Below, piece after piece: positions 2,606-39,140 of a stretch of 64,000 nt of DNA (the stretch's first letter is position 1; every line of letters begins with the position of its first letter). The notes under the pieces are model-generated. The model ran no database searches. It saw nothing but the letters and a program-made list of their open reading frames with translations, and was not told the DNA's origin. Source of the stretch: a virus; IMG/VR virus record IMGVR_UViG_3300050821_024084, positions 37,022-101,021 of that record; one strand, written 5' to 3'. The position numbers and the translations under genes were made by a program.

Positions 2606-2850
2606 TCGCTCGCTTTCTTCTGTTTCAGGTACCAGGCTTCCAGCAGCTCTTCCGCTCGCTCCAGCTCCTCCAGCGCCTGCGCGCCGTGCAGCGCGCAGAT
2701 GACGGCATCCGCCTCGGCCCGGGTCAGCGCCTGCGCATCAGTCCACGTGCAGCCGCTGGAGCTGTGCGGAGGCGGATGACCCGGCTCCTGCGTGCAGATC
2801 GCGCCGTGCTGACAGAACGACTGACAGCACAGCTCATCAATCAGTCGCAC
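2602..2850 (-). CDS. Hypothetical Cys-rich protein with helical C-terminus
   Basis: The most likely start is the GTG at 2850, 8 nt inside the end of the upstream gene, giving 82 residues. The frame is open to 2931, so a longer form cannot be excluded. Residues 8-27 hold four cysteines and histidines (CCQSFCQHGAIC), followed by a helical segment ALTRAEADAVICALHG and a charged helix ending in YLKQKKASE. The N-terminal cluster could bind zinc. It overlaps the next gene by ATGA. Confidence 0.55.
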   Translation of the reverse strand: MRLIDELCCQSFCQHGAICTQEPGHPPPHSSSGCTWTDAQALTRAEADAVICALHGAQALEELERAEELLEAWYLKQKKASE

Positions 2851-3032
2851 TCCGGATTCTCTTCCCGCTTTCCCGCCGCGCGTCGCGCACGCGACAACGG
2901 ACCCGGCTGATTCGGATTCGGCTGATGCCATCGTCGCGACCGCGACCCGTCATCCCGGTGCAGCTGCCGCAGATACGGCTCTATCTGCCGGTACGCGCTC
3001 GCGCGCCAGCGACCCGGATTGCGACGACTCAT
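2841..3032 (-). CDS. Small basic hypothetical protein
   Basis: A 63-residue, Arg/Gln-rich protein (SRRNPGRWRASAYRQIEPYL at the N-terminus), with its start overlapping the upstream stop as ATGA. The charge suggests nucleic-acid binding, but no motif is recognised. Confidence 0.55.
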   Translation of the reverse strand: MSRRNPGRWRASAYRQIEPYLRQLHRDDGSRSRRWHQPNPNQPGPLSRARRAAGKREENPECD

Positions 3033-3289
3033 TCCTCCTCCTCATAGAACGGCAGCGGCGCGAGCCAGTAGTACACCGTGATCCCGCTGCGCTCCCGGCT
3101 ACGCGACTCCCCCGCCTGCGACCCGTCCGGATACGACGCTCGCCAGACAATCTCATCCTGACCCGTCAGCCTGCGGATCTCATTCGCACGCCGACGAGCT
3201 GCCCCGGGCGATCCGCAGACACACAACGTCACCGGATCGCCATACGCGCCGATCTGCTCCGACAGCGTCCACACCGTCCGGTCAGACAT
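3029..3289 (-). CDS. Hypothetical protein
   Basis: The ATG at 3289 is preferred because AGGTGA lies 6 nt upstream and it overlaps the upstream gene by 8 nt; an ATG at 3295 is also possible. The 86-residue product has VTLCVCGSPGAARRRANEIRRLTG (helix after a glycine turn), then a basic linker and a C-terminal VYYWLAPLPFYEEEE. No family is recognised. Confidence 0.6.
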   Translation of the reverse strand: MSDRTVWTLSEQIGAYGDPVTLCVCGSPGAARRRANEIRRLTGQDEIVWRASYPDGSQAGESRSRERSGITVYYWLAPLPFYEEEE

Positions 3290-22773: not shown

Positions 22774-23102
22774 CCAGCGCGGGAGGCGCGGTCACGATGT
22801 CCCGGCTGTCGCTCCAGTACGTGTCCGTCCCGGTGCAGGCGTACAAGGGGGGCACGGTCTACAATCCCACGAATGACGTGGTGGAATTCGCCTTCGTACA
22901 GAATTACGGGACGGTGCCGTCCAGCTGGGCGGCGGGCAGCTGGGTATCGCAGCTGAATTACACGTATCCGTATGCGGCTCAGTGCCTGGTGGGGCCAGGC
23001 GGGGCGACGGCACCGACCACGGGGGTTTACAACATCTGGGTGCAGATCCAGGACGATCCGGAAGTCCCGGTGTTCATCGCCGGTCAATTGCAGATCATAT
23101 GA
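22770..23102 (+). CDS. Hypothetical head-region protein
   Basis: ATG overlapping the previous stop; an internal ATG at 22797 is an alternative start. 110 residues, beta-rich (VSVPVQAYKGGTVYNPTNDV, VYNIWVQIQDDPEVPVFIAG). The composition suggests a small structural or decoration protein. No named family is recognised. Confidence 0.6.
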   Translation: MTSAGGAVTMSRLSLQYVSVPVQAYKGGTVYNPTNDVVEFAFVQNYGTVPSSWAAGSWVSQLNYTYPYAAQCLVGPGGATAPTTGVYNIWVQIQDDPEVPVFIAGQLQII

Positions 23103-23118
23103 CGGGAAGGGGGCGGGA

Positions 23119-26100
23119 ATGGCGCGTCGCTCCACGCTGATGGCCGCGAAGTACATGCCGGGCGCGGCGTCCCCGACCTCCGCCCCGCAGAATGCGGGGG
23201 CTCCGTACTACGGGCTCGTGTCACCGCTGGCACAGCAGCTCGCGAATGAGCGGGGCTATTCTAATTCCTACGGGCCGTTCCTGCCGAGGCCCGCGCAGAC
23301 ATTTACTGAGGGCGCATTCGGGCCGTTCAGCCCGATTCTCCCGGTCCCGGTAGATGCGCCTCCCGTCGAAGACGGGCTGCCGGATCCCCGGCTGTTCGAG
23401 TACCAGGTCGGGTGGAACCTGCCGGTCGGGCAGCCGGGGACCGAGGGTCTCAAGCTAGTGGATTTCGCTACGCTGCGCACGCTGGGGGATCTGTACTCGG
23501 TCGCGCGGGCGTGCATCGAGAAACGCAAGAACGAGATCACCGGCCTGGACTGGGATATCGTGCCGACGCACGAGGCGTCCAAGGCGTACCAGGGCGACCG
23601 GAAGGCCAACCGGGATCTGGGCGAGCGCATCGCCAAGGCGAAGAAGTTCTTCCGGCAGCCGGACCCGGACTACTTCTCGTTCGGGGAATTCCTCACTGCC
23701 GTGCTGGAGATGGTGTTCGTCTACGACGCGCTGTCTATCGTGCTGCGGCCTAAGCGCGGTAAGGGGATGGGCAAAGGGCTGCTCGGGTCGGATCTGGACT
23801 GCCTGGAGCTAGTTGACGGAGCCACTATTCGCCCGCTTTTGGGAATGCACGGAGAAATTCCGAGGCCGCCCTGCTATAGCGAGGACACGGAAATTCTCAC
23901 CCGGGGCGGCTGGAAGCTGTTCAGCGATCTCAAGGGAACAGAAGAAGTTGCTACCCGCTCGAAAGACGGTGTGTTTGAGTGGCAGCGGCCCACGCATTAC
24001 GTGAATGAGGCGTACACCGGTCCGATGGTGCAATTCTCCGGTCGCACTATTGACTGCCTGGTAACCCCTGATCACCGGATGCTCACGACTGTAGGTCCTG
24101 ACGGCTGGTCCGAGGCTAGCCGGGTGCGAGACAGTAAAGGACGGATCTGCGGTCATGCAGACGGTAAGGACGGGACTCAGCGGGAATGGATCACATCGGC
24201 GCAGCGTCTCCTGGAAAGAAAGCAGGCAGGCGCAAAAAAGGATGACCGGCTGGTAGCTGTCAGCTCGTGGCACGGGCGCGAGCTGCGGAGTGCCACGTTT
24301 ACCGTCACGGGCCAGGTGTTTCGGTGGGACGATGGTGATGTGCATCGTGCAGAGGGACCGGAAATCCCTGCGGATGTGCGGGATCACTCAGTAGAGATGA
24401 CGGGTGATCAGTACGCGGCCTTCATGGGCATGTACCTGTCTGAAGGCGGTCTCATCCACGACAGAGAAAAGCACGGCTACCGGATTACCATCAGCCAGAC
24501 CGCGAACGGAAAGGGAATCGCGGAGTACGGACAGCTTATCCAGGAGCTATTCGGTGATCTTCGGCGAGGCTCTGGCGGGTGGAATATCTGGAGGAAGGCG
24601 CTGTGGCGGTACTGCCATCAGTTCGGATACGCACCGGATAAGTTCGCGCCACCCGAAGTGCTTGATATGTCGCGGCGTCAGCTCAAGATATTCTGGAGGT
24701 ACTACTGGCTAGGCGACGGGCATACGGAGCACACACAGGAGCAGGAAGTCGTGGCGACCTCCAGCTGTCTGATGGCGGGCGCGTTCCAGGAAATCATCCA
24801 GAAACTCGGGTACTCATCATCTGCTCGCCCTAGTGGTGATGGCTATTATCGCTTGCGTACACGGAAGACTGCCTATCCCGGGTATAACGCTAAGCAGGCT
24901 GATTACTCGGGGCGTGTTTACTGCGTGACGGTGCCGAATGGTATTGTTTATGTCCGGAGGAATGGCCGGGCGGTGTGGTCAGGAAATTCGCCCGCCTACC
25001 AGCAGTACCTTTACGGCGTGCCGCGCAGCGACTACATGACAATGATCACGCAGCGGGACATTGATGAAGGCGGCCTGGCCGGATCCGAGATCCAGTCGTT
25101 CACGTCGGATCAGCTGCTGTACCTGCGCACTACTCCCCGGCGCTGGACGCCGTATGGCTTCGCTAACCTGGAGCAGTCGCTCATCCCGGTGCTGACGGGG
25201 CTGCAAAAGCAGGCGTATCAGCTTGATTATTTTCGTGAGGGATGCTATTCTCCGGACACTGAGATTCTCACGAAAGATGGCTGGAAGCTCTTCCCGGACC
25301 TGACCTACGACGATGAGCTTGCTACTCGAAGCGAGCAGGGAGACTTCCGCTGGCATCGACCGGAAGCCATTCTTTCGTACGACTTCGACGGGGAGCTGCT
25401 CGCTTTTCAGAGCAAGGCAGTAGATCAGCTTGTGACACCTGGTCACAGGATGATCGTGCAGCACCTGCCATCCTACGTGCGTGATCACCCGGCTACTCCG
25501 GAACATGGCTGGCACGTGCGGCTCGCGAAATATTTCGCCGAGCATCCAAGCGCCCAGTTCCAGATGCCGGCGACGTCTCGCTGGACAGGACCCGAGCCGG
25601 AGTACCAGGAAATCGACACCTGGCGCAAGGTCAAGCGGCAGTATGGTACGGAGAAGGCCATCACGTGGCTCCGCGAGCACCTGGTGCCGGGTGAGTGGGC
25701 TCCGTCTGCGCAGGTGCTCAAGTCTGCTCAGGCAGCAGGCGTCGGGAGAAACTCTCTTGAGCGTGCGAAAGACGTGCTCGGGATACAATCACGACGCGTC
25801 GGCAGCACGCGCTCCGGAAGGGGAGTTTCTTTCTGGGAGATGCGTCTTCCTGCTGAAGACCTGGCTGTGCTGGAGCGCGCAGAGGAAATCCGTACGGGAA
25901 GCCGCCGGATCCCGATGAAGGAGTTCTGCGGGCTCCTTGGCCTGTATATCTCAGAGGGCTGGGTGCGATCAGATCGTAATGATGTACTCATTGCCCAGCA
26001 TGCGGATAATCCGCGTATCGAGCGTATTCGCGAGATACTGGACAGTACCGGGCTGCACTGGAGCTATCAGGAATCGAACCAGAGATTCGCGGTGTGCAGC

Positions 26101-29100
26101 AAGGACCTCGCGCGCTGGCTTCGGGATAACTGCCCGGGACGGGCATGGGAGAAGCGCATTCCGGTTCGGTTCAAGAACCTCGGCCCGGAATGCCTCGCCG
26201 CTCTGATGGAGGGTCTGACACTCGGAGATGCGCATCTCGGCCCAGCTGGTCAGCGTTACTACACAACGACAAGCCCTGGTCTTGCAGACGATGTGCAGGA
26301 GATTTTCCAGAAGCTCGGGTGTGATGCCTGGATTCGCCAGACGAAGATGGAGAAGTATTTTTCTGGTGAATACGGTGAGACTCCGTATGGCGGTCACGCG
26401 CGACGGCAGATGTATGTCGTCCGGGAACGGATGCAGGATGCTCATATGGTTCCTGCGCCTGTGCCTGTTTCGTACACCGGAAAAGTCTGGTGCGTGACTG
26501 TCCCCGGTGGGGTGGTCTATGTCCGGCGGAATGGTCGCGCTATCTGGTGCGGGAATACTATCCCCGGCATCTATATCAGCCCCGGGGACCCCAACATGAC
26601 CCCGAATCAGATCCGGGAACTGCAAGACGCCCTGAACGCGATTGCCGGGGACCCCGCCTGGCATCACAAGGTCATCGTGCTGCCGCCCGGCTCCAAGACC
26701 GAGCCGCAGCGCCCGGTGGATCTCGCTGACCAGTTCGACGAGATCCTGATGACTGAAGTCTGCATGAACTTCGACATCAACCCGATGGACCTGGGCATCG
26801 TCCCCAAGGTCAGCACTGCCGTCTCGCCGTTCGCGGCGCGTGAGATGGCGCAGGCATCCAAGACGGTGCACGAGCGGACCGCGACCAAGCCGCTGCTGAA
26901 GTTCCTCTGCAACATCTTCGACTCCATCCTGCATCGCGTCTGCGGTCAGGATGATATGAAGTTCACGTTCGAGGGCCTGTCCGAGACGCAGGACGAAGCC
27001 TCGATGACGGATCTTATCGTCAAGCAGGTGCAGTACGGCATCCGGTCGGTGGATGAGGGACGTGCCGAGCTGGAGCTGCCCCCCTGGAATCTGCCCGAGA
27101 CGTCCGGTCCGGTGGTGTTCACCCAGATGGGTCCGGTGGCGTTCGAGCAGGCGCAGCAGCTTCTCCAGGCGCAGGCAGCTCCGCAGCAAGGCAGCGACAC
27201 CAGTCACAACGGGCCGAAGAAGGCCACCAGCACCTCGGGCCGGGGCGACCAGTACGGCGGTCCGGGGCGTCCCCGGCACAGCACCCCGTTCCCGGCTCCG
27301 CAGTCCACCAAGCCTAGCTCGGACGTGCCCCCGGAGCGCGCCGGACGGGGGACGCCCGCGCACGATGCAGCGCGCGCCGGGATGGGTGTCACCGCGCATG
27401 CAGCGGCGAAGGCGGAGCTCGGGGCGCTGACCCGGCACCTGAAGAAGGGCCGTCAGATCTCCACCTGGGAGGCCCGGCACATCCCCGGGGCGACCCTGGC
27501 GGCGATCTCCGAGGATCTGGCCAAGGGACTGTCGGTCGAGCAGGCGGTGGACATCGCCGCGCTGATCATGCTCGGCGAGGACGTGGTGCTCCCAAAAGCG
27601 GAGATGCGGCAGTGGCCGGGGTGGCAGCGTGATCTCGGGCTGGTCGGCGCGTACACGGAGATCATCCGGCATGCGTTCCGGACAGCGGAAAACGAGGACA
27701 TGCAGCTGCGCCGGGATCAGGCACGCGGCGTCGTCACCGTGACCCCCGGGGTGTTCCGGGACATGACCGGGCAGATCCTGCGGGATGCCGTGTCCGGGGC
27801 GCTCGCACCGCTGGTGCGGGATGCCTGGAAGCTGGGGTACGAGTCCGCTCAGGAGCTGGCCGGCGCGTATCCGCACGAGATGCCCGGGGTGATGGACGCC
27901 TTCCTGGCGACAGAGCTGCGGCACTGGTCGGAGCAGATCGGCCGGACGGGGCTAGGGAACGCTTCGCAGCGGGCGGAGCTCATCGCCCGGACTGAGATCT
28001 CCCGGGCGCAGTCCGCTGCCGCGCTCCAGTGCTATCGCGATTCCGGGGTGGCCTACAAGCATCTGCTGACCGCGCCGGACGACGTGTGCCCGGCTTGCCA
28101 GGGGGACGCTGCTGACGGGGACATCCCGCTGGACGCGGCGTTCGGGTCGGGGAATCTCGGGCCTCCGCTGCATCCGGCGTGCCGGTGCGCTGTCGCTCCG
28201 GCCGGGATCGAGGCGGAGCCTCCGCTGGCGCATCTCGGCAAGGCGGAGCAGGATGCCCCCGCTGAGACGGTGGCGTTCCTGCTTATCCGGGCGCTGAACG
28301 TCGAGGGCAAGTGGCGCTATCTGCTCCAGAAGCGGGGGGAGAGCAGCTCGAACCCTGGTGAATGGGGCCTTCCGGGCGGGACAGCACATCCGGATGAGAC
28401 TCCGTGGGCAACCGCGATGCGGGAGTCCGAGGAGGAGATGGGCGCGCTGCCCGGCCTGGCACCAGGGCAGGTGATCTGCGACATGCTGGACGACAGACGG
28501 CAGCGCTTCACGTTCGTCTGCGAGACCGCCTGGTTCGAGCCGTCAATGGACGGGTCCACCCCGGAGGAAGTCGCCGGCTGGGGCTGGTTCCGGCCGAGGG
28601 AGATCGCGGAACTGGACCTGCATCCGGCGTTCGAGCAGACCTGGGAGCTGTTCCGGGACGCTGAGAAGGATCGCAGCCGGTCCCGGGTGCTCGTGAACGG
28701 CCAGGAGATCTACCCCGAGGACAACGAGGAAGAAGACGACTGGCCGCCGGGGGGCGGCGGGGGGACGTATCCGCATCCGCATCGCGCTGACGGCACGGAG
28801 GTTTTCGCCCTCGGCGGGCGGCCGGGAACCGAGCCACCGCGCTGGGACGGTGATGAGACTGAGCCGTTCGTCGCGCTGCCCGCCGGTCCGGCGGGCGCGC
28901 ACGGGGTCCGGGAAGGCCGCGCGGCGCTGCCCCCCGCTGGCGGCACGAGCCCGCACGTCGCGGACGGATCGGTGAAGAAGCCGCGTCCGGCAGACAACGG
29001 CCCGGATGAGGATGATGATGCCTGGTGGCCGCTGGTGCGCGGACGCCCGCCGAACGCGGTGGGCAAGGGAGCTAGTGACTACTGGGACCCGAACCCGGTC

Positions 29101-29511
29101 GAGCCGGAGCATGTCCTGTCGGTCATGCGCTCGAATTTCCCGGAGGACGTGCTCAGCTGGGTGAAGCGAGCGCACTGGATCGGGCCGGTGGAGGTGCCGT
29201 GGGAGAGAGTTAACACCAAGGATGCCGACAGCTGGGCAGCCAGCCATCAGCGGGACGCGGTGCACCGGTTCGCCCGGCAGATCAAAGCCGGGACGGGGCA
29301 TCTCAATCCGAGCATCCTGGTGCAGCGACCAGACGACGATAAGTGTGATATAGTGGACGGGCATCACCGGGCTCTGGCTCGCCATCAGCTCGGGAAACCG
29401 GTGCTCGCTTATGTGGGTTTCGTTCATGCGGGAGACATGCAGGCCGCGCTCGAAACTCACAGCAGTCAGTTCCACTCCGGCAGTAATCCGCAGAACAAAG
29501 GAGAAACATGA
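23119..29511 (+). CDS. Portal-MuF-Nudix-HHxA fusion protein with two inteins
   Basis: ATG at 23119 after a GGGAAGGGGGCGGGA stretch; 2130 residues before and about 1320 after splicing. The portal exteins are residues 1-251 (RTLGDLYSVARACIEKRKNE), 624-708 (TPYGFANLEQSLIPVLTGL) and from 1147 on (TIPGIYISPGD, EVCMNFDINPMDLGI). A MuF-type head domain follows, with RAELIARTEISRAQSAA and paired metal ligands CPAC ... HPACRC (around 1656-1695). Then comes a Nudix hydrolase domain with a full Nudix box (GGTAHPDE ... MRESEEEMG), and a C-terminal ParB-like DIVDGHHRALARHQLG domain. It forms the DNA-entry ring of the capsid; the enzymatic tail may be packaged or act during assembly. Confidence 0.9.
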   Translation: MARRSTLMAAKYMPGAASPTSAPQNAGAPYYGLVSPLAQQLANERGYSNSYGPFLPRPAQTFTEGAFGPFSPILPVPVDAPPVEDGLPDPRLFEYQVGWNLPVGQPGTEGLKLVDFATLRTLGDLYSVARACIEKRKNEITGLDWDIVPTHEASKAYQGDRKANRDLGERIAKAKKFFRQPDPDYFSFGEFLTAVLEMVFVYDALSIVLRPKRGKGMGKGLLGSDLDCLELVDGATIRPLLGMHGEIPRPPCYSEDTEILTRGGWKLFSDLKGTEEVATRSKDGVFEWQRPTHYVNEAYTGPMVQFSGRTIDCLVTPDHRMLTTVGPDGWSEASRVRDSKGRICGHADGKDGTQREWITSAQRLLERKQAGAKKDDRLVAVSSWHGRELRSATFTVTGQVFRWDDGDVHRAEGPEIPADVRDHSVEMTGDQYAAFMGMYLSEGGLIHDREKHGYRITISQTANGKGIAEYGQLIQELFGDLRRGSGGWNIWRKALWRYCHQFGYAPDKFAPPEVLDMSRRQLKIFWRYYWLGDGHTEHTQEQEVVATSSCLMAGAFQEIIQKLGYSSSARPSGDGYYRLRTRKTAYPGYNAKQADYSGRVYCVTVPNGIVYVRRNGRAVWSGNSPAYQQYLYGVPRSDYMTMITQRDIDEGGLAGSEIQSFTSDQLLYLRTTPRRWTPYGFANLEQSLIPVLTGLQKQAYQLDYFREGCYSPDTEILTKDGWKLFPDLTYDDELATRSEQGDFRWHRPEAILSYDFDGELLAFQSKAVDQLVTPGHRMIVQHLPSYVRDHPATPEHGWHVRLAKYFAEHPSAQFQMPATSRWTGPEPEYQEIDTWRKVKRQYGTEKAITWLREHLVPGEWAPSAQVLKSAQAAGVGRNSLERAKDVLGIQSRRVGSTRSGRGVSFWEMRLPAEDLAVLERAEEIRTGSRRIPMKEFCGLLGLYISEGWVRSDRNDVLIAQHADNPRIERIREILDSTGLHWSYQESNQRFAVCSKDLARWLRDNCPGRAWEKRIPVRFKNLGPECLAALMEGLTLGDAHLGPAGQRYYTTTSPGLADDVQEIFQKLGCDAWIRQTKMEKYFSGEYGETPYGGHARRQMYVVRERMQDAHMVPAPVPVSYTGKVWCVTVPGGVVYVRRNGRAIWCGNTIPGIYISPGDPNMTPNQIRELQDALNAIAGDPAWHHKVIVLPPGSKTEPQRPVDLADQFDEILMTEVCMNFDINPMDLGIVPKVSTAVSPFAAREMAQASKTVHERTATKPLLKFLCNIFDSILHRVCGQDDMKFTFEGLSETQDEASMTDLIVKQVQYGIRSVDEGRAELELPPWNLPETSGPVVFTQMGPVAFEQAQQLLQAQAAPQQGSDTSHNGPKKATSTSGRGDQYGGPGRPRHSTPFPAPQSTKPSSDVPPERAGRGTPAHDAARAGMGVTAHAAAKAELGALTRHLKKGRQISTWEARHIPGATLAAISEDLAKGLSVEQAVDIAALIMLGEDVVLPKAEMRQWPGWQRDLGLVGAYTEIIRHAFRTAENEDMQLRRDQARGVVTVTPGVFRDMTGQILRDAVSGALAPLVRDAWKLGYESAQELAGAYPHEMPGVMDAFLATELRHWSEQIGRTGLGNASQRAELIARTEISRAQSAAALQCYRDSGVAYKHLLTAPDDVCPACQGDAADGDIPLDAAFGSGNLGPPLHPACRCAVAPAGIEAEPPLAHLGKAEQDAPAETVAFLLIRALNVEGKWRYLLQKRGESSSNPGEWGLPGGTAHPDETPWATAMRESEEEMGALPGLAPGQVICDMLDDRRQRFTFVCETAWFEPSMDGSTPEEVAGWGWFRPREIAELDLHPAFEQTWELFRDAEKDRSRSRVLVNGQEIYPEDNEEEDDWPPGGGGGTYPHPHRADGTEVFALGGRPGTEPPRWDGDETEPFVALPAGPAGAHGVREGRAALPPAGGTSPHVADGSVKKPRPADNGPDEDDDAWWPLVRGRPPNAVGKGASDYWDPNPVEPEHVLSVMRSNFPEDVLSWVKRAHWIGPVEVPWERVNTKDADSWAASHQRDAVHRFARQIKAGTGHLNPSILVQRPDDDKCDIVDGHHRALARHQLGKPVLAYVGFVHAGDMQAALETHSSQFHSGSNPQNKGET
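23872..24987 (+). mobile_element. Portal intein 1 with in-frame LAGLIDADG endonuclease
   Basis: 372 residues from Cys1 (CYSEDTEILTRGGWKLF) to Asn, followed by Ser+1. Block B is CLVTPDHRML. The endonuclease motifs are AAFMGMYLSEGGLIHD and FWRYYWLGDGHTEH. The end is YCVTVPNGIVYVRRNGRAVWSGN, where the penultimate residue is Gly and not the usual His. It is clearly paralogous to portal intein 2. Confidence 0.9.
25243..26556 (+). mobile_element. Portal intein 2 with in-frame LAGLIDADG endonuclease
   Basis: 438 residues from Cys1 (CYSPDTEILTKDGWKLF) to Asn, followed by Thr+1. Block B is QLVTPGHRMIV. The endonuclease motifs are FCGLLGLYISEGWVRSD and ALMEGLTLGDAHLG. The end is WCVTVPGGVVYVRRNGRAIWCGN, again with Gly before Asn. 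First and last 25 residues are nearly the same as portal intein 1; the middles differ. The insertion site lies in the conserved FREG-TIPG portal segment. Confidence 0.9.
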
Positions 29512-33194: not shown

Positions 33195-35996
33195 GTGGCA
33201 ACGACACTGACCGACAGTGGTGAGCTGACCTTTCTCAGTTTCCCTATCGAGAAGACCGAGGAAACAGCCGACGGCGACGTCATCGTCTGGGGGAAGGCCA
33301 CTGACAGCACGGTGGACTCTGACGGGCAGATCGTCGATGCTGCCTGGTCGGCGAAGGCGATCGCGGAGTGGCTGCCTATCGGTAACGTTCGCGTTCAGCA
33401 TCAGGCTCAGCGTGACCCGGCCGGCAAGGCCATAGATGCATCCTACGGCAGCGACGCGCACTATGTCAAGTCCCTGATCGTCGAGCCGGTTGCCAAGGAG
33501 CTGGTCAAGAAAGGTGTGCTGACCGCCTACTCGGTCGGCATCGCGCGTCCGGTCATCGAGCCGGATATCAGCGGCAAGGCACGCGGCGGGATCATCAAGG
33601 GCGGCAAGCTGGTCGAGCTGTCACTGGTGGACCGGCCCGCGAACAAGAACTGCGGTATCCAGCTCGTCAAGTCCGAGGGTGACGCCGGCCCCGAGTGGAC
33701 CGGCAAGGTCTGGGGAGACGAGGAGCTGCTCACCAAGGCTGCTGTGACCGAGCCCGCTGAGGACAGCGAGACCGAAGATGAGCCGACCCCGCCGTCAGCC
33801 TCGGCGGAAACTCAGCCGACCGTCGGCAAGTCCGTGACGATTGAGCTGCCGGAGGACGTGTCCGTGGCGTTCACGCCACGTGATCTGGAGAAGATGCTGA
33901 CGCGCCGGGGAGCTGCACCCGTCCCGGATACGGAAAAGCGCGACTTCGACCCGAACGTGGGGACGCACGGCACTGATCGCGACGCGATGTCCGGCTCGGA
34001 CTTCGCAGGCCGGGACCGGTCGTTCCCGATACATGATCAGTCCGACGTCTCCGACGCGCTCCAGTCTATCGGCCGGGCGGGCTCGGACAACTATGATGCT
34101 GCCACGCTGCGCGCGAACATCAAGCGGATCGCGCGCCGGAAGGGATTCTCCGTGCCGGGAGACTCGGATTCAGATAAGCCCAAGAAGAAGGCCAGCAAAA
34201 GCGAGGATGCCCCGGTGCTGACCGAGGAGCTGCTGGAGGCGATCATGAAGACCGTCTCCTGCGACATGTGCAAGGGCACCGGCAAGGTGGATGGCAAGTC
34301 GTGCCCGTCGTGCATGACCAAGGGCATGAACCGGATGGACGCCGATGACCACGACGACGACTCCGACGCTGATGAAGACGACAAGGGCGCGGACAAGGCG
34401 GCCAAGAAGCCCAAGGGCAAGAAGCTGCCCCCCTGGCTGAACAAGCCGGATGGCAAGGGCGACAACGACGCTGACAGCGACTCCAGGAGCGACAAGGGCG
34501 GCACGCCAGCCGATGGCGTGACCGGCATGCATGCCGAGCCTGCGCCCGTGCACCGGGAGCCGGACGGATCCGACATCGAGTCGTTCGAGAAGGACGCGAG
34601 CCTGAGCGACGGCGACAACGAGAAGCCGTCCCGGCTGGAGTCGCAGATCGAGGGCAAGCTAGAGCGCGACGCTGTGCTGCACTTCAAGTCACTAGGTGTT
34701 GATCACCAGCTCGGCGTCCTGCACGATCTGTGCTGCCCCGCCTACGCTCCGGAGGACGTGGCGAAGGCGCACCCGGGCTCGGACTTCGCGAACATCGACC
34801 TGGAGTGGTTCGCTCGCAAGGCGATGGACCTGGCGGCAGGCGGCACGCTGGCGGAGGCATCCCGGGCGACCCTGGCCTGGACGCAGGCCCGGACGCTCAA
34901 GACCCTGACGGCTGGCCAGATGGCAGAGCTCCAGGCGGAGGCGCACAAGGCATTCCGGGATGCGAATCCTGGTCCCGGCAGCGCCCCGGTACCTGGCTGT
35001 GTCAGCCCCGAGAAGTTCCACCGACCCTATCTCACGGCGGGACACGCGGCAGAATCGGCCAGCGGGCACGCCGACGGACCGAGCGCGACCATCCCGTCTG
35101 GTCAGATCCACGCCGAGCAGTTCGGGCGCGGCTTCATCTCCGACGGGCATGCGGCGGATTCCCCGGCGAACAAGGGCAGCGTCCCGCAGAGCGTGGACTA
35201 CGTGCCGGTCGTCCGGGAGAACGCGCAGGCGGCGATGCGCGCGATGCACGATCACGTCGCGCAGACTTTCCCGGATGTGTGCCCCATGGAGATGTCCCGG
35301 GATGAGCACACGGTCATGTCGAATCCGGTTCCGGTTCCGGGTGGCACGCCTGCGACCAGCGCCGCACGCATCGGGCAGGTGCACAAGACGGAGGACGCCG
35401 ACGAGCAGATCGAGAAGCTGCTTGCCGAGGCTGAGCTGGAGAAGGCGCAGAAGAAGATGCGCAAGAAGCTCGGCAAGAAGGTCCTCGCCGGCAAGATGAC
35501 AGTTGACGAGGCCCGGTCCAGGCTGGGCCGGACCGTCACGCAGAAGGCGGAGGAGCCGGAGCCTGACGTGCAGAAGGCGGCTGAGACCGCACCGGTATCG
35601 CGCTGGTCTGACGGCAGTCCCGTGCCGCCTGTCTGGGTCACGAATGGCGGTGTCTCGCCTGACCTGATGAAGTCGGCCCTCGACACGGCCCTGGAGCCGC
35701 TGCTAGCCCGGCTCGGTGAGCAGGACGTCCTGCTCAGGAAGCAGGCCCAGATGCTGGACGCGCTCGCGGACCAGCCCGACCCGGCAGTCGCCCCCTTCAA
35801 GGGCCTGGCTGCCAACCCCCAGAAGATGGCTTCTGCGCGCCCGGCGGGCGCGCAGTCAGTGGCTGAGGTCGCGGAGCGGACTCAGGCCATGATGCTCCGG
35901 GAGCTGGAAACTCAGTACCGGACAGCCGCGCATCCTGCGGAGCGGGAAGCGGCGTTTCGTTCCATGATGAAACTACGAGGTCTGAATACGCAGTAA
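33195..35996 (+). CDS. Prohead protease fused to scaffold-like region
   Basis: GTG start after GGGAGGA; 933 residues. The N-terminal 160 residues form an HK97-type serine protease: catalytic His in VRVQHQA, Ser in VLTAYSVGI, and the conserved ELSLVDRPANKNCGI strand. A long acidic/Lys-rich middle follows, with a CDMCKGTGKVDGKSCPSC zinc-knuckle (DnaJ-like) near residue 355. The C-terminal third is helical (ADEQIEKLLAEAELEKAQKK). The protease would mature the capsid and its own scaffold. Fusion of protease and scaffold is common; the zinc knuckle inside is less so. Confidence 0.85.
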   Translation: MATTLTDSGELTFLSFPIEKTEETADGDVIVWGKATDSTVDSDGQIVDAAWSAKAIAEWLPIGNVRVQHQAQRDPAGKAIDASYGSDAHYVKSLIVEPVAKELVKKGVLTAYSVGIARPVIEPDISGKARGGIIKGGKLVELSLVDRPANKNCGIQLVKSEGDAGPEWTGKVWGDEELLTKAAVTEPAEDSETEDEPTPPSASAETQPTVGKSVTIELPEDVSVAFTPRDLEKMLTRRGAAPVPDTEKRDFDPNVGTHGTDRDAMSGSDFAGRDRSFPIHDQSDVSDALQSIGRAGSDNYDAATLRANIKRIARRKGFSVPGDSDSDKPKKKASKSEDAPVLTEELLEAIMKTVSCDMCKGTGKVDGKSCPSCMTKGMNRMDADDHDDDSDADEDDKGADKAAKKPKGKKLPPWLNKPDGKGDNDADSDSRSDKGGTPADGVTGMHAEPAPVHREPDGSDIESFEKDASLSDGDNEKPSRLESQIEGKLERDAVLHFKSLGVDHQLGVLHDLCCPAYAPEDVAKAHPGSDFANIDLEWFARKAMDLAAGGTLAEASRATLAWTQARTLKTLTAGQMAELQAEAHKAFRDANPGPGSAPVPGCVSPEKFHRPYLTAGHAAESASGHADGPSATIPSGQIHAEQFGRGFISDGHAADSPANKGSVPQSVDYVPVVRENAQAAMRAMHDHVAQTFPDVCPMEMSRDEHTVMSNPVPVPGGTPATSAARIGQVHKTEDADEQIEKLLAEAELEKAQKKMRKKLGKKVLAGKMTVDEARSRLGRTVTQKAEEPEPDVQKAAETAPVSRWSDGSPVPPVWVTNGGVSPDLMKSALDTALEPLLARLGEQDVLLRKQAQMLDALADQPDPAVAPFKGLAANPQKMASARPAGAQSVAEVAERTQAMMLRELETQYRTAAHPAEREAAFRSMMKLRGLNTQ

Positions 35997-36017: not shown

Positions 36018-39000
36018 GTGGCGGACATTCTCACGGAAAGCGCCCCGCCCGCAGCGGGTCCGGGCGATCTCAGCCAGCCATCTCGCGAGGTGGCGGTCAT
36101 GGCGAACCGGTATTCGACGACCGGTGACGTCATCAAGGCACGCATGCCCGAGCTAGTCAAGGGCGCGGGCTATGCCCTCGGGGAGAACGCTCCCCTGAAC
36201 GACAACATGGAGATCCTCACCCGGGCGCATCAGGCGACCCTGGACCTGCGGACGGAGACGTATCGCGGGTACACGGACAAGCCGTCCGTGGTCAAGGGGA
36301 TGAACGGCGACTTCCTGGGTCAGCGCGGCTACCTGAAGACGGCGCTGACCGCTCCGTCCATCCAGGAGCAGATGCAGCAGCTCGTCGGCATGCTGCCGGG
36401 CGGCGCGGATGCGCTGAAGTCGTTCACTGCTGGGAACCTTGGGATCGGGTCTGTTTATGGACTCGTTCCTTTCGACCTCAATGGGGTCCTCGCACGGTAA
36501 CGTGCGTGTCCTCCGCTTCGTGAAGAAAATGCCTTGCACCTTCACGGCTGATCTCAAGCGGAGGGATCTCCACTCGGTAACGAGTGTGATCAAACCACGA
36601 GAATTGCTGGGACATCTCGCAGGCACATACGCTACAGCGTGACGTAAAAACGTGAGCGCGACAGCTAAAAAGTTATGTGACAGAGACAATCAGCAGCCGA
36701 GCCCGCCTGATTCGTTCGACGGGAAGGTTCAACGACTATGTACGTGGCTCCTCATGACGAGGATGAAGATATAGTCTGACCTCACGTGAGAGCGTGAGAG
36801 GCCAGCAGAAATGACTGGCCCCGCCGTTTATGCGCGGTGAGTAACAACGTGATCCGGTCTACACAGTATTTCGCAACAAACTGCCCCGTCCGCCCGGACA
36901 GGGTACCGCTCGTCAGGCGAAGGTCTTCACAGGTGTCAGTGGCTCTCAGACCGGCGGTCAGGGCATCATTGACATCTCGATTCCTGAGCTGGTGCAGTCC
37001 GGCGGCTCGCTGTCCTCGACGGCGTGGCCGCTGAACCTGCCTCCGTCGGGATCGCAGACCGAGGTTGATCTCAACATTCCCTATCGCTTCTTCGGTCTCA
37101 CAGAATCACTGTCCTGGCTGGCGCAGTTCGCCGGGCAGGGCTTCGAGGACATCAGCGCACTAGCTAACCTGATCCTGCTGCAAGAAATGATGATGGGTGT
37201 TTTATCCGGATATGTCCGGTTTCGCCCCCTCACTCGGTGACGAGTGAGTGATAACCACGAGAATTGCTGGGACACCCGTATCACCCTGTTGCACCACAAC
37301 GTGGCCCGAAAGGACGAGCGTGACGGTCTGAAAAGCAGCAGGCAGGGGCAATCAGCAGCCGAGCCCACCTGGATTCGCTCCGATGGGAAGGTTCAGAGAC
37401 TATGTACGTGGAGTCTTAGCGCCAGTAATCTGATGAAGCTGCTTCAGCTTTTCTGGCAAGCACGAGGGTGACGTCATCGTACATCCATCGCACCGCTGGT
37501 GCATCGCGCTTGCTTCCGAGCAGATAGTGATACTTCTTGTCCTTACCGGCCATCCTGCGTCGCAGGACACATCCGGTATGCCGCTCGATGATGGCGGCAG
37601 TGCTCTCAAGCACAGACGGTGTGCCTATCAGCCCGATCATCCGCTTGTCGATAGATCCGTCTCCGTCCCAGAGCCCGCGCAGAAGATGGCGTTCCAGCTC
37701 GGGGGCCACAGACGGGAGAGTAGCGGAGTAGCTTTTGTCATGGTGGAGTCCTAGCTTATTCAGGTCCCTTACCATCTTCACGCTGTAGAGCGTGAGTCGC
37801 ATCATCCCGTCCTTCTGAGGGGTGAGCGGTGCGTCATGGTTAAGTTCCCGCGCCACTGCGCGGAGTAGCTCAGCATCGTTCTCTTTCAGGCTGATCTGAA
37901 TTTTGCGACCGTCGTTAGTGACGTGGCCGTCTGCTAGAATAAGCCCGAGGATATACGCCTTCTCGGCGGTGTCTATCCGGGTGAAGTAATCACGGTCTGT
38001 TGTCCATTTCGGCGGTGGGCTCATCTGTACAGTATAGCGCGCTGAGATTATGATATAGTCCGGTCTCATGTGAGAGCATGAGAGGCATGCAGAAATGACA
38101 TGCCCGCTCGCTGTCAAGCGAGAGGTAACAGAACGGAAGAGTATCAGCTCCTGGCTGGTACCTCGACAGCACTTTCTGCTCCGGCAACTCCGACTCTCAC
38201 GGCCCGGACGGCTGGCTCGAACGAGACGGCGCTGTCCACGGACGGCTCCGCCACGTACGTGACCGTCACGGCCACGAACTACTTCGGCGAGACGGTTGCC
38301 AGCACGGCAGCTACCCTCACCCCGACCACGGGGCAGGTCGTTGACGTGACCATCGTCCCGGTCACCGGGGCGCAGTCCTACAACATCTACGTCGGCACGG
38401 CCAACGCCCGGACCACGCTGTACCGCATGGCGACTGGCGTCGGCGGGCAGCGCTACACGCTTCAGGGGACCGCTCCCAGCTCGGGTGCGAACTCGCCGGC
38501 GGCGGACACCGGCACGGGCACCAACACCCGGCTGGAGGGCCTGATCCCGACGCTGACCGGCAAGTCGGCGCAGACCACGGTCTACCCCAACGGGTGGCAG
38601 GGCGGCTACTACCAGCCGTCTGTCGGCACGCACCTGTCGTACAACGCGATCTACACGGCGCTGGATGCGCTGTGGGAGTCGGTATTCACGAACCCGGGAG
38701 CATTCCGGGCGGATCCGGCGGAGATCGCCGGTGACGGCGGCGACATCATGCGGCTGTCCACCGACGTCATCAACCAGGGCTCGGCGACGAACTACCGCCT
38801 GTGGCTCGACCAGGCGGACGTCTCTGGCGTCCGGGTCGGCGCGGCGGTGTCGGAGTTCCAGAACCCGATCACCCGGTCGGTGCTCAAGCTCGTCGTGCAT
38901 CCGTGGATGACGCAGGGCACCGCGATGCTCATGACGTACCAGCTCCCGCAGACGTGGACGAACGTCGCGAATGCGTGGGAGATGACGTGCGTGCAGGACT

Positions 39001-39140
39001 ACGTCTCAATCGCGTGGCCCGTCATTGACGCCACGTTCCGCTACTCGATCTTCCTGTACGCCGCGCTGTGCGGCTACGCTCCGTACTACTCGGGGATTCT
39101 TCAGGGGCTGCAAGTAAGCGATACCACCCCCTACCAGTAA
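36018..39140 (+). CDS. Major capsid protein, three exons split by two group I introns
   Basis: GTG start after AAGGAGAAG. Exons inferred at 36018-36478, 36850-37198 and 38136-39140, giving 604 residues in frame. The HK97-fold signatures cross the junctions: GIGSVYGLVPFDL, then VYTVFRNKLPRPPGQGTARQ, then ANLILLQEMMMG joined to EEYQLLAGTSTAL. Exon 3 contains a Thr-rich Ig/FN3-like insert (about 75 residues, TYVTVTATNYFGETVASTA) and the capsid C-terminal half (YRLWLDQADVSGVRVGAAV, APYYSGILQGL). Junction 2 fits capsid conservation well; junction 1 (Phe-Asp-Leu to Asp-Pro-Val) is less sure. Confidence 0.85.
36479..36849 (+). ncRNA. Group I intron 1 in the capsid gene
   Basis: Core elements in order: P GAATTGCTGGGACA (36601-36614), Q CAATCAGCAGCCGAGCCC (36687-36704), R GGTTCAACGACTATGTACG (36726-36744), S AAGATATAGTC (36766-36776). 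P1 pairs exon GACCT with GGGTC, giving the expected U-G at the 5' splice site (after 36478). The last base is G (36849). P9 is CTCACG/CGTGAG at 36781-36798, followed by GGCCAG/CTGGCC. No ORF inside. Boundaries are inferred. Confidence 0.85.
37416..38024 (-). CDS. LAGLIDADG homing endonuclease encoded antisense in intron 2
   Basis: 202 residues from the ATG at 38024; the frame is open far beyond, but the sequence before this point is capsid shadow. Two LAGLIDADG helices are present: EKAYILGLILADGHVTNDG and ERHLLRGLWDGDGSIDKR, each ending in the acidic catalytic residue, with DNA-contacting strands between (RKIQISLKENDAELL, YHYLLGSKRDAP). On its strand TATACT (38036-38031) precedes the ATG by 6 nt, a leaderless design. 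It would cut intron-less capsid genes and drive intron homing. Confidence 0.87.
   Translation of the reverse strand: MSPPPKWTTDRDYFTRIDTAEKAYILGLILADGHVTNDGRKIQISLKENDAELLRAVARELNHDAPLTPQKDGMMRLTLYSVKMVRDLNKLGLHHDKSYSATLPSVAPELERHLLRGLWDGDGSIDKRMIGLIGTPSVLESTAAIIERHTGCVLRRRMAGKDKKYHYLLGSKRDAPAVRWMYDDVTLVLARKAEAASSDYWR
38031..38036 (-). promoter_or_regulatory. -10 hexamer of the intron endonuclease gene
   Basis: TATACT on the minus strand, 6 nt before the ATG at 38024. The same hexamer and spacing precede the minus-strand gene at 33133 (33140-33145). Confidence 0.55.

Follow-up and report, generated by a model that had tools for sequence, protein, structure and literature searches.

A coreless 53-nt mini-intron beside a complete group I intron in the capsid gene of a soil phage: a candidate natural two-intron module with one core

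The window, by which we mean the whole 64-kb stretch of DNA that was analysed, is part of a 101-kb virus record originating from a soil phage. Its capsid gene was resolved by a profile-guided splice alignment, under the rules that an intron ends in G and that the 5′ exon ends in U, into four exons, one of them only 23 nt long, and three introns, located at 36479-36531 (53 nt), 36555-36851 (297 nt) and 37199-38135 (937 nt). The joined capsid frame is open and comprises 1836 nt. The introns are referred to below as mini-intron A, intron B and intron C, and L044 is a second viral record holding counterparts of A, the micro-exon and B. The features of the locus are the following.

36018..36478, plus strand: capsid exon 1, with a GTG start and ending in ...TTCGACCT; open joined frame that matches intact relatives
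36479..36531, plus strand: mini-intron A, 53 nt, coreless, following U36478 and ending in G36531; placed by the splice alignment, reading frames, a signature test and a 60-nt counterpart at 2753-2812 of L044
36532..36554, plus strand: micro-exon, 23 nt, CCUUGCACCUUCACGGCUGAUCU; placed by the splice alignment and reading frames, with VAPSRLI as its product in L044
36555..36851, plus strand: intron B, complete group I intron, 297 nt, terminal G36851; RF00028 at 65.7 bits, P1, P10, P9.0 and the splice alignment
36595..36776, plus strand: catalytic core P3-P8 of intron B, with P3 from 36595 and P7 formed by 36734-36739 and 36771-36776; RF00028 and covariation
36852..37198, plus strand: capsid exon 3; protein alignment of relatives and the splice alignment
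37199..38135, plus strand: intron C, group I intron, 937 nt, terminal G38135; RF00028, relatives, the splice alignment, P1 and P10
37416..38024, minus strand: gene for a 202-aa LAGLIDADG homing endonuclease, located within P8 of intron C; LAGLIDADG_3 and phrog_4645
38136..39140, plus strand: capsid exon 4, with the stop codon at 39138-39140; the splice alignment

In regard to the identity of the gene, it was assigned as a capsid gene by its position directly downstream of a head maturation protease, because neither Pfam nor PDB gave a significant match. This protease (33195-35996, plus strand, 933 aa) is fused to a long low-complexity region. The gene product has no capsid match in Pfam, its PHROG match is a family of unknown function, and a Foldseek search with an AlphaFold model built from 58 sequences (pLDDT 62.5) returned no significant PDB match, the best capsid match having an E value of 0.027; a first model, built from 19 sequences, was too poor. 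The HK97 capsid motifs that an earlier note on this DNA had read in the joined exons were thus not confirmed. No second copy of the capsid gene was found in the record of the window or in that of L044. Further upstream, a portal-like ORF (22972-29511, plus strand, 2179 aa) apparently contains two inteins, followed by Mu F and NUDIX domains; the intein blocks start with CYSxDTEILT, end with VYVRRNGRAxWxGN and show a LAGLIDADG_3 match. Among prokaryote genomes, 17 stretches fitting the capsid patterns were inspected and none was a relative, so no host could be proposed.

The earlier note had described two introns in the capsid gene, the first of them 371 nt long and ending in a terminal G at 36849. 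The corresponding junction 36478/36850 gives FDL-DPVYT (VPFDL-DPVYTVFRN), whereas relatives have FDL-LAPSRLIY-PVYT: among the matches listed, intact relatives read VPFDL-LAPSRLIYPVYTVFRN or a near variant at this place. The pattern FDL-x-APSxLxY is present in 58 aligned intact relatives, with A54, P55, S56, L58 and Y60 invariant, which places LAPSRLIY among the best-conserved segments of the capsid protein. The missing codons lie within the supposed intron, as CTTGCACCTTCACGGCTGATCT at 36533-36554, and since LAPSRLIY is therefore encoded by a micro-exon, the region holds two introns rather than one, namely the 53-nt A and the 297-nt B separated by 23 nt, which brings the gene to three introns. 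The micro-exon completes the leucine codon of FDL, encodes LAPSRLI and supplies the first base of the Y codon. The joins 36478/36532 and 36554/36852 are the only ones that restore the conserved capsid segment; in the reading-frame test, retention of mini-intron A introduced a stop codon, and skipping of the micro-exon caused a frameshift. The terminal G of the second of these introns is consequently G36851, situated 5 nt past TAACA as is typical of the family (mostly 5-7 nt), while G36849 would be only 3 nt past it.

Other parts of the earlier reading held up. Two related group I cores are indeed present on the plus strand, as introns B and C match each other in blastn (E 2e-18) and both match Rfam RF00028. 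The covarying helices of the earlier note are likewise real. Intron B is a complete group I intron, predicted to be self-splicing. It matches the full RF00028 model (1-253) at 36540-36798 with 65.7 bits, above the gathering threshold, and has a P1 between exon GAUCU (36550-36554) and GGAUC (36564-36568), with a U.G pair at the 5′ splice site, a P2 hairpin CACUCG-GUAA-CGAGUG (36571..36586, plus strand) and a P10 between CGGA (36559-36562) and UCCG (36853-36856) of the next exon; P9.0, assigned by sequence inspection, is AC/GU.

Intron C is an ordinary group I intron carrying an antisense LAGLIDADG gene. Its RF00028 match (37202-38082; 42.0 bits, E 4.5e-9) stays below the gathering threshold of 50 and is interrupted by the endonuclease gene inserted in P8. 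The junction 37198/38136, proposed before, agrees with all of the 22 intact relatives among the matches listed, where MMMG is likewise followed by EEYQL, and it is accompanied by P1 GGGU/GCCC, a 4-bp P10 GAAG/CUUU, P9.0 GU/AC and terminal G38135. The antisense ORF in P8 was also correctly recognized: 37416-38024 on the minus strand encodes 202 aa matching LAGLIDADG_3 (E 5.8e-12, in two stretches) and phrog_4645 (E 5.8e-36), and by its domain it is a LAGLIDADG homing endonuclease, whose cleavage and homing activities are putative. An intron at the same capsid site in another virus (L101, 6334-7465) contains an antisense LAGLIDADG gene that is 53% identical and has an additional N-terminal helix-turn-helix match.

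Mini-intron A retains only the substrate part of a group I intron, comprising a P1 with U.G, a GNRA-capped P2, a P10 and a terminal G. Its P1 (P1A) is formed by exon GACCU (36474-36478) and GGGUC (36484-36488), with the U.G pair at the splice site. Only 2 nt past P1A, the minimum-energy fold contains the hairpin P2A, CGCACG-GUAA-CGUGCG (36491..36506, plus strand), capped by a GNRA tetraloop, in which L044 shows two double-compensatory changes. A GNRA-capped P2 stands at the equivalent place in almost every full intron of the capsid family. The L2 loop is GUAA in A, as in B, while intron C has GUGA. P10A brings together the P1 loop CAAUG (36479..36483, plus strand) and the start of the micro-exon, CCUUG (36532-36536), with four of the five pairs formed in the window; in L044 it extends over seven contiguous pairs. 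Mini-intron A ends in G36531, and the A elements of both the window and L044 end in G exactly where protein homology demands it. The signature of a five-pair P1 with an adjacent GNRA-capped P2 occurs at exactly two sites on both strands of the 64-kb window, 36479 and 36555, and its frequency in shuffles of A was 1e-5 and 2e-5. On the other hand, no motif of the P3-P9 core (P, Q, R, S) is present in the 53 nt of mini-intron A, which for this reason is not classed among group I introns proper. A core-motif pattern allowing up to two mismatches found only the two known cores in the whole record. By sequence inspection, P9.0 of A with the core of B would have one of two pairs in the window (A-U, with C.A as the other position) and none in L044.

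Additional pairings connect mini-intron A with the sequences downstream. One segment of it, CCUCCGCUU (36510..36518, plus strand), pairs with AAGCGGAGG (36556..36564, plus strand) in the guide region of intron B, forming helix Px1, and a second, GUGAAG (36520..36525, plus strand), pairs with CUUCAC (36540-36545) of the micro-exon, forming Px2. In L044, a U-A pair of Px2 is replaced by C-G, the change being synonymous in the exon. Px appears in the minimum-energy fold of both precursors, with z scores of -5.26 in the window and -3.70 in L044, and 0 of 200 shuffles were as stable. The segment 36556..36564 (plus strand) accordingly has two alternative uses, either as the 3′ strand of Px1 together with A or in P10B. 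Base C36559 takes part in both: in Px its partner lies in mini-intron A, and in P10B it lies in the next exon. L044 has T in place of this C, and the two partner positions have changed along with it, synonymously in the exon (CCG to CCA). Such a triple change is the trace expected from a switch between two mutually exclusive pairings.

In L044 the micro-exon (encoding VAPSRLI), intron B and a 60-nt A (2753-2812) are all preserved, even though the identity of the capsid coding sequences is 69%. Comparison of the window with L044 covered 52 pairs in nine helices of these three elements and gave ten double-compensatory changes, one one-sided change and no broken pair. The capsid gene of L044 (2446-7140) contains ten introns of 60 to 968 nt and exons down to 19 and 23 nt, and a complete capsid protein results when all ten introns are removed. 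Its intron B (2836-3134), like an intron of L039 (4738-4985), has A instead of G as the last base, with the junction set by the protein; for B of L044, this terminal A could reflect poor splicing there or an error in the record.

Searches of 2.9 million viral contigs with DNA patterns for the A motif or the micro-exon/B joint recovered it elsewhere only in L037 and L044, the remaining hits being chance matches and one unrelated full intron. Since the locus has the same sequence in L037 as in L044, the A/B module is known from two virus lineages in total, and mini-intron A is present only beside B in both viruses. Further search among relatives of the L044 capsid found no new mini-intron, and in about 4 Mb of fetched DNA, inspected on both strands for P1 and P2 without a core, the matches other than A look like chance. 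The pattern scan also drew attention to an unrelated virus (L133 and L140) in which what is probably a complete group I intron has a similar P1 with GACCT.

The wider capsid family is a rich natural resource: across 24 viruses, 65 introns were counted, which occupy 32 sites and number up to ten per gene. Their sites favour conserved stretches, conservation being 0.85 around intron sites and 0.70 at random sites. Most of the long introns (L006, L039, L054, L070, L071, L097, L102) hold plus-strand endonuclease genes of the DUF559 type (EDxHD-like) rather than LAGLIDADG genes. Putative introns of 42 and 54 nt at aa 366-368 in L036, L039 and L042 were rejected, being multiples of three in a variable region. 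When L2 tetraloops were compared with their P8 receptors, GUAA occurred with CC:GG in 8/8 cases and the exceptions were found among GUGA and GCGA (Fisher p 0.015); the pairs were scored by hand, after which L054 site 145 emerged as one more exception, and with such exceptions the rule serves as a hint only.

In regard to the mechanism, the presence of splice-positioning marks without a catalytic core leads to the proposal that mini-intron A is probably cut out by the core of the adjacent intron. We consider A and B, with a probability of roughly 0.6, to be a two-intron module with one core, in which the core of B would excise first A and then itself; that A is spliced at all, that the core of B is the agent, and that this is the order of events is what we infer from the sequence comparisons. 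In the precursor, P1A and P2A would dock on the core of B, and guanosine would cut after U36478. Exon 1 could then attack after G36531, guided by P10A, joining to the micro-exon and releasing the 53-nt A. Before A leaves, its 3′ part would be paired to the guide of B through Px, so that B could not form P1B and P10B until A is gone. Removal of A would free the guide, and B could then excise itself in the normal way. The complete reading, that of a natural group I ribozyme that removes its own intron and a separate upstream coreless intron of 53-60 nt, in an order fixed by a pairing switch, is in our estimation slightly better than an even bet.

Alternatively, the core that excises A could belong to a different molecule and act in trans, for example that of a released intron B, of intron C or of a second transcript copy. 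Engineered group I ribozymes are known to act in trans (PMC4094466, PMC6155759), and the AU preceding the terminal G of A could pair with GU in J7/9 of intron C (forming G-U and U-A), a fit no worse than that with the AC of B. However, Px ties A physically to B and would gate the guide of B, A accompanies B in both viruses, the whole record offers only two cores, and the GUAA loop shared by A and B differs from the GUGA of intron C, all of which makes excision in trans rather unlikely, although it deserves more weight than the remaining alternatives. It could also be supposed that A is a dead remnant, in which case the gene would be broken, or A would be spliced only rarely or with the help of host proteins, or that A is an assembly artefact. 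The records are metagenomic and A has no core of its own, yet the same element, with compensatory changes, is found in an independent virus at 69% coding-sequence identity, and the remainder of the gene is intact and single-copy; such an origin therefore seems improbable.

Somewhat less credible still is a single 371-nt intron at 36479-36849, which would swallow the LAPSRLI-like stretch and leave a capsid lacking LAPSRLIY. This intron would be in frame, P1A would serve it as a good P1, and Px could be an ordinary extra hairpin. It would nevertheless remove residues invariant in 58 relatives, from a stretch that is conserved as coding sequence in L044, where it shows a synonymous change; in addition, the distance of G36849 from TAACA departs from that of most of the family, and P10B and P9.0 fit 36851 and span B only. 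Translational bypassing, known for T4 gene 60, would have the ribosome hop over the 53 nt, and the short insert, with a stop codon and hairpins directly past the last decoded codon, would suit it. The take-off and landing codons are mismatched, however, being CUC to UGC or CUU in the window and CUU to AGU or GUC in L044, landing on CUU costs one residue, and P1, P2, P10 and the terminal G are left unexplained, so we regard bypassing as highly improbable.

Designed ribozymes are the usual means of studying how self-splicing introns gave way to short introns that share one core, as in the spliceosome. If the two-intron module is correct, this natural case of one core and two introns would make the shared-core step testable in an RNA of under 400 nt. 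The locus is also a warning for annotation: phage group I introns can conceal exons and introns of very small size that no covariance model reports, and essential phage genes may be joined wrongly as a result.

Several known systems resemble parts of this locus. The antisense endonuclease gene had been considered notable in the earlier note; its presence stands, while an antisense LAGLIDADG gene in a phage capsid intron is already known from the mycobacteriophage LittleE, where splicing was demonstrated by RT-PCR and N-terminal sequencing (PMC3706429, Pope 2013). There too, a group I-type intron in the capsid gene carries a LAGLIDADG gene on the bottom strand. However, the LittleE endonuclease is unrelated to that of the window by blastp and is located downstream of the core match instead of in P8 (in L142, endonuclease gene at 1065-1598 and core at 859-1062), and LittleE has a single intron, with neither a micro-exon nor a coreless intron. 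More than one related group I intron in a single phage gene is also the case for the ribonucleotide reductase gene of Twort (cited in PMC3984707), which has two, each with its own core. The capsid gene of Faustovirus E12 is likewise rich in introns, with 12 of them (5 group I), homing endonuclease genes and exons down to 13 bp (PMC6247863), but Faustovirus is a eukaryotic giant virus with mixed intron types, and a coreless group I intron is not described there.

The closest functional parallels come from engineered RNAs. In trans-excision-splicing, group I ribozymes excise short segments by means of P1 and P10/P9.0 (PMC6155759), and spliceozymes remove introns of 64-100 nt in E. coli (PMC4094466). 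As proposed for the module described here, one group I core removes a short non-ribozyme segment, using P1 and P10/P9.0 or P9.2, and joins the flanks; the engineered ribozymes, however, act in trans, whereas the module in the window is natural, is proposed to act in cis, and has its own P2 and a switch helix. In the open-access literature, we found no description of a natural coreless, split or shared-core group I intron, and within that literature the removal of a short intron by the core of another intron has been described so far only in engineered RNAs.

Among natural introns, those of group III in euglenoids are short and without the catalytic core they once had; a core located elsewhere presumably serves them. 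Mini-intron A is similar to them in its small size, lost core and presumed outside core, but the euglenoid introns are found in chloroplasts and derive from group II rather than group I. If the reading proposed here is true, the A/B module would represent a natural counterpart of the engineered spliceozymes and a group I analogue of the coreless group III introns, kept in two virus lineages.
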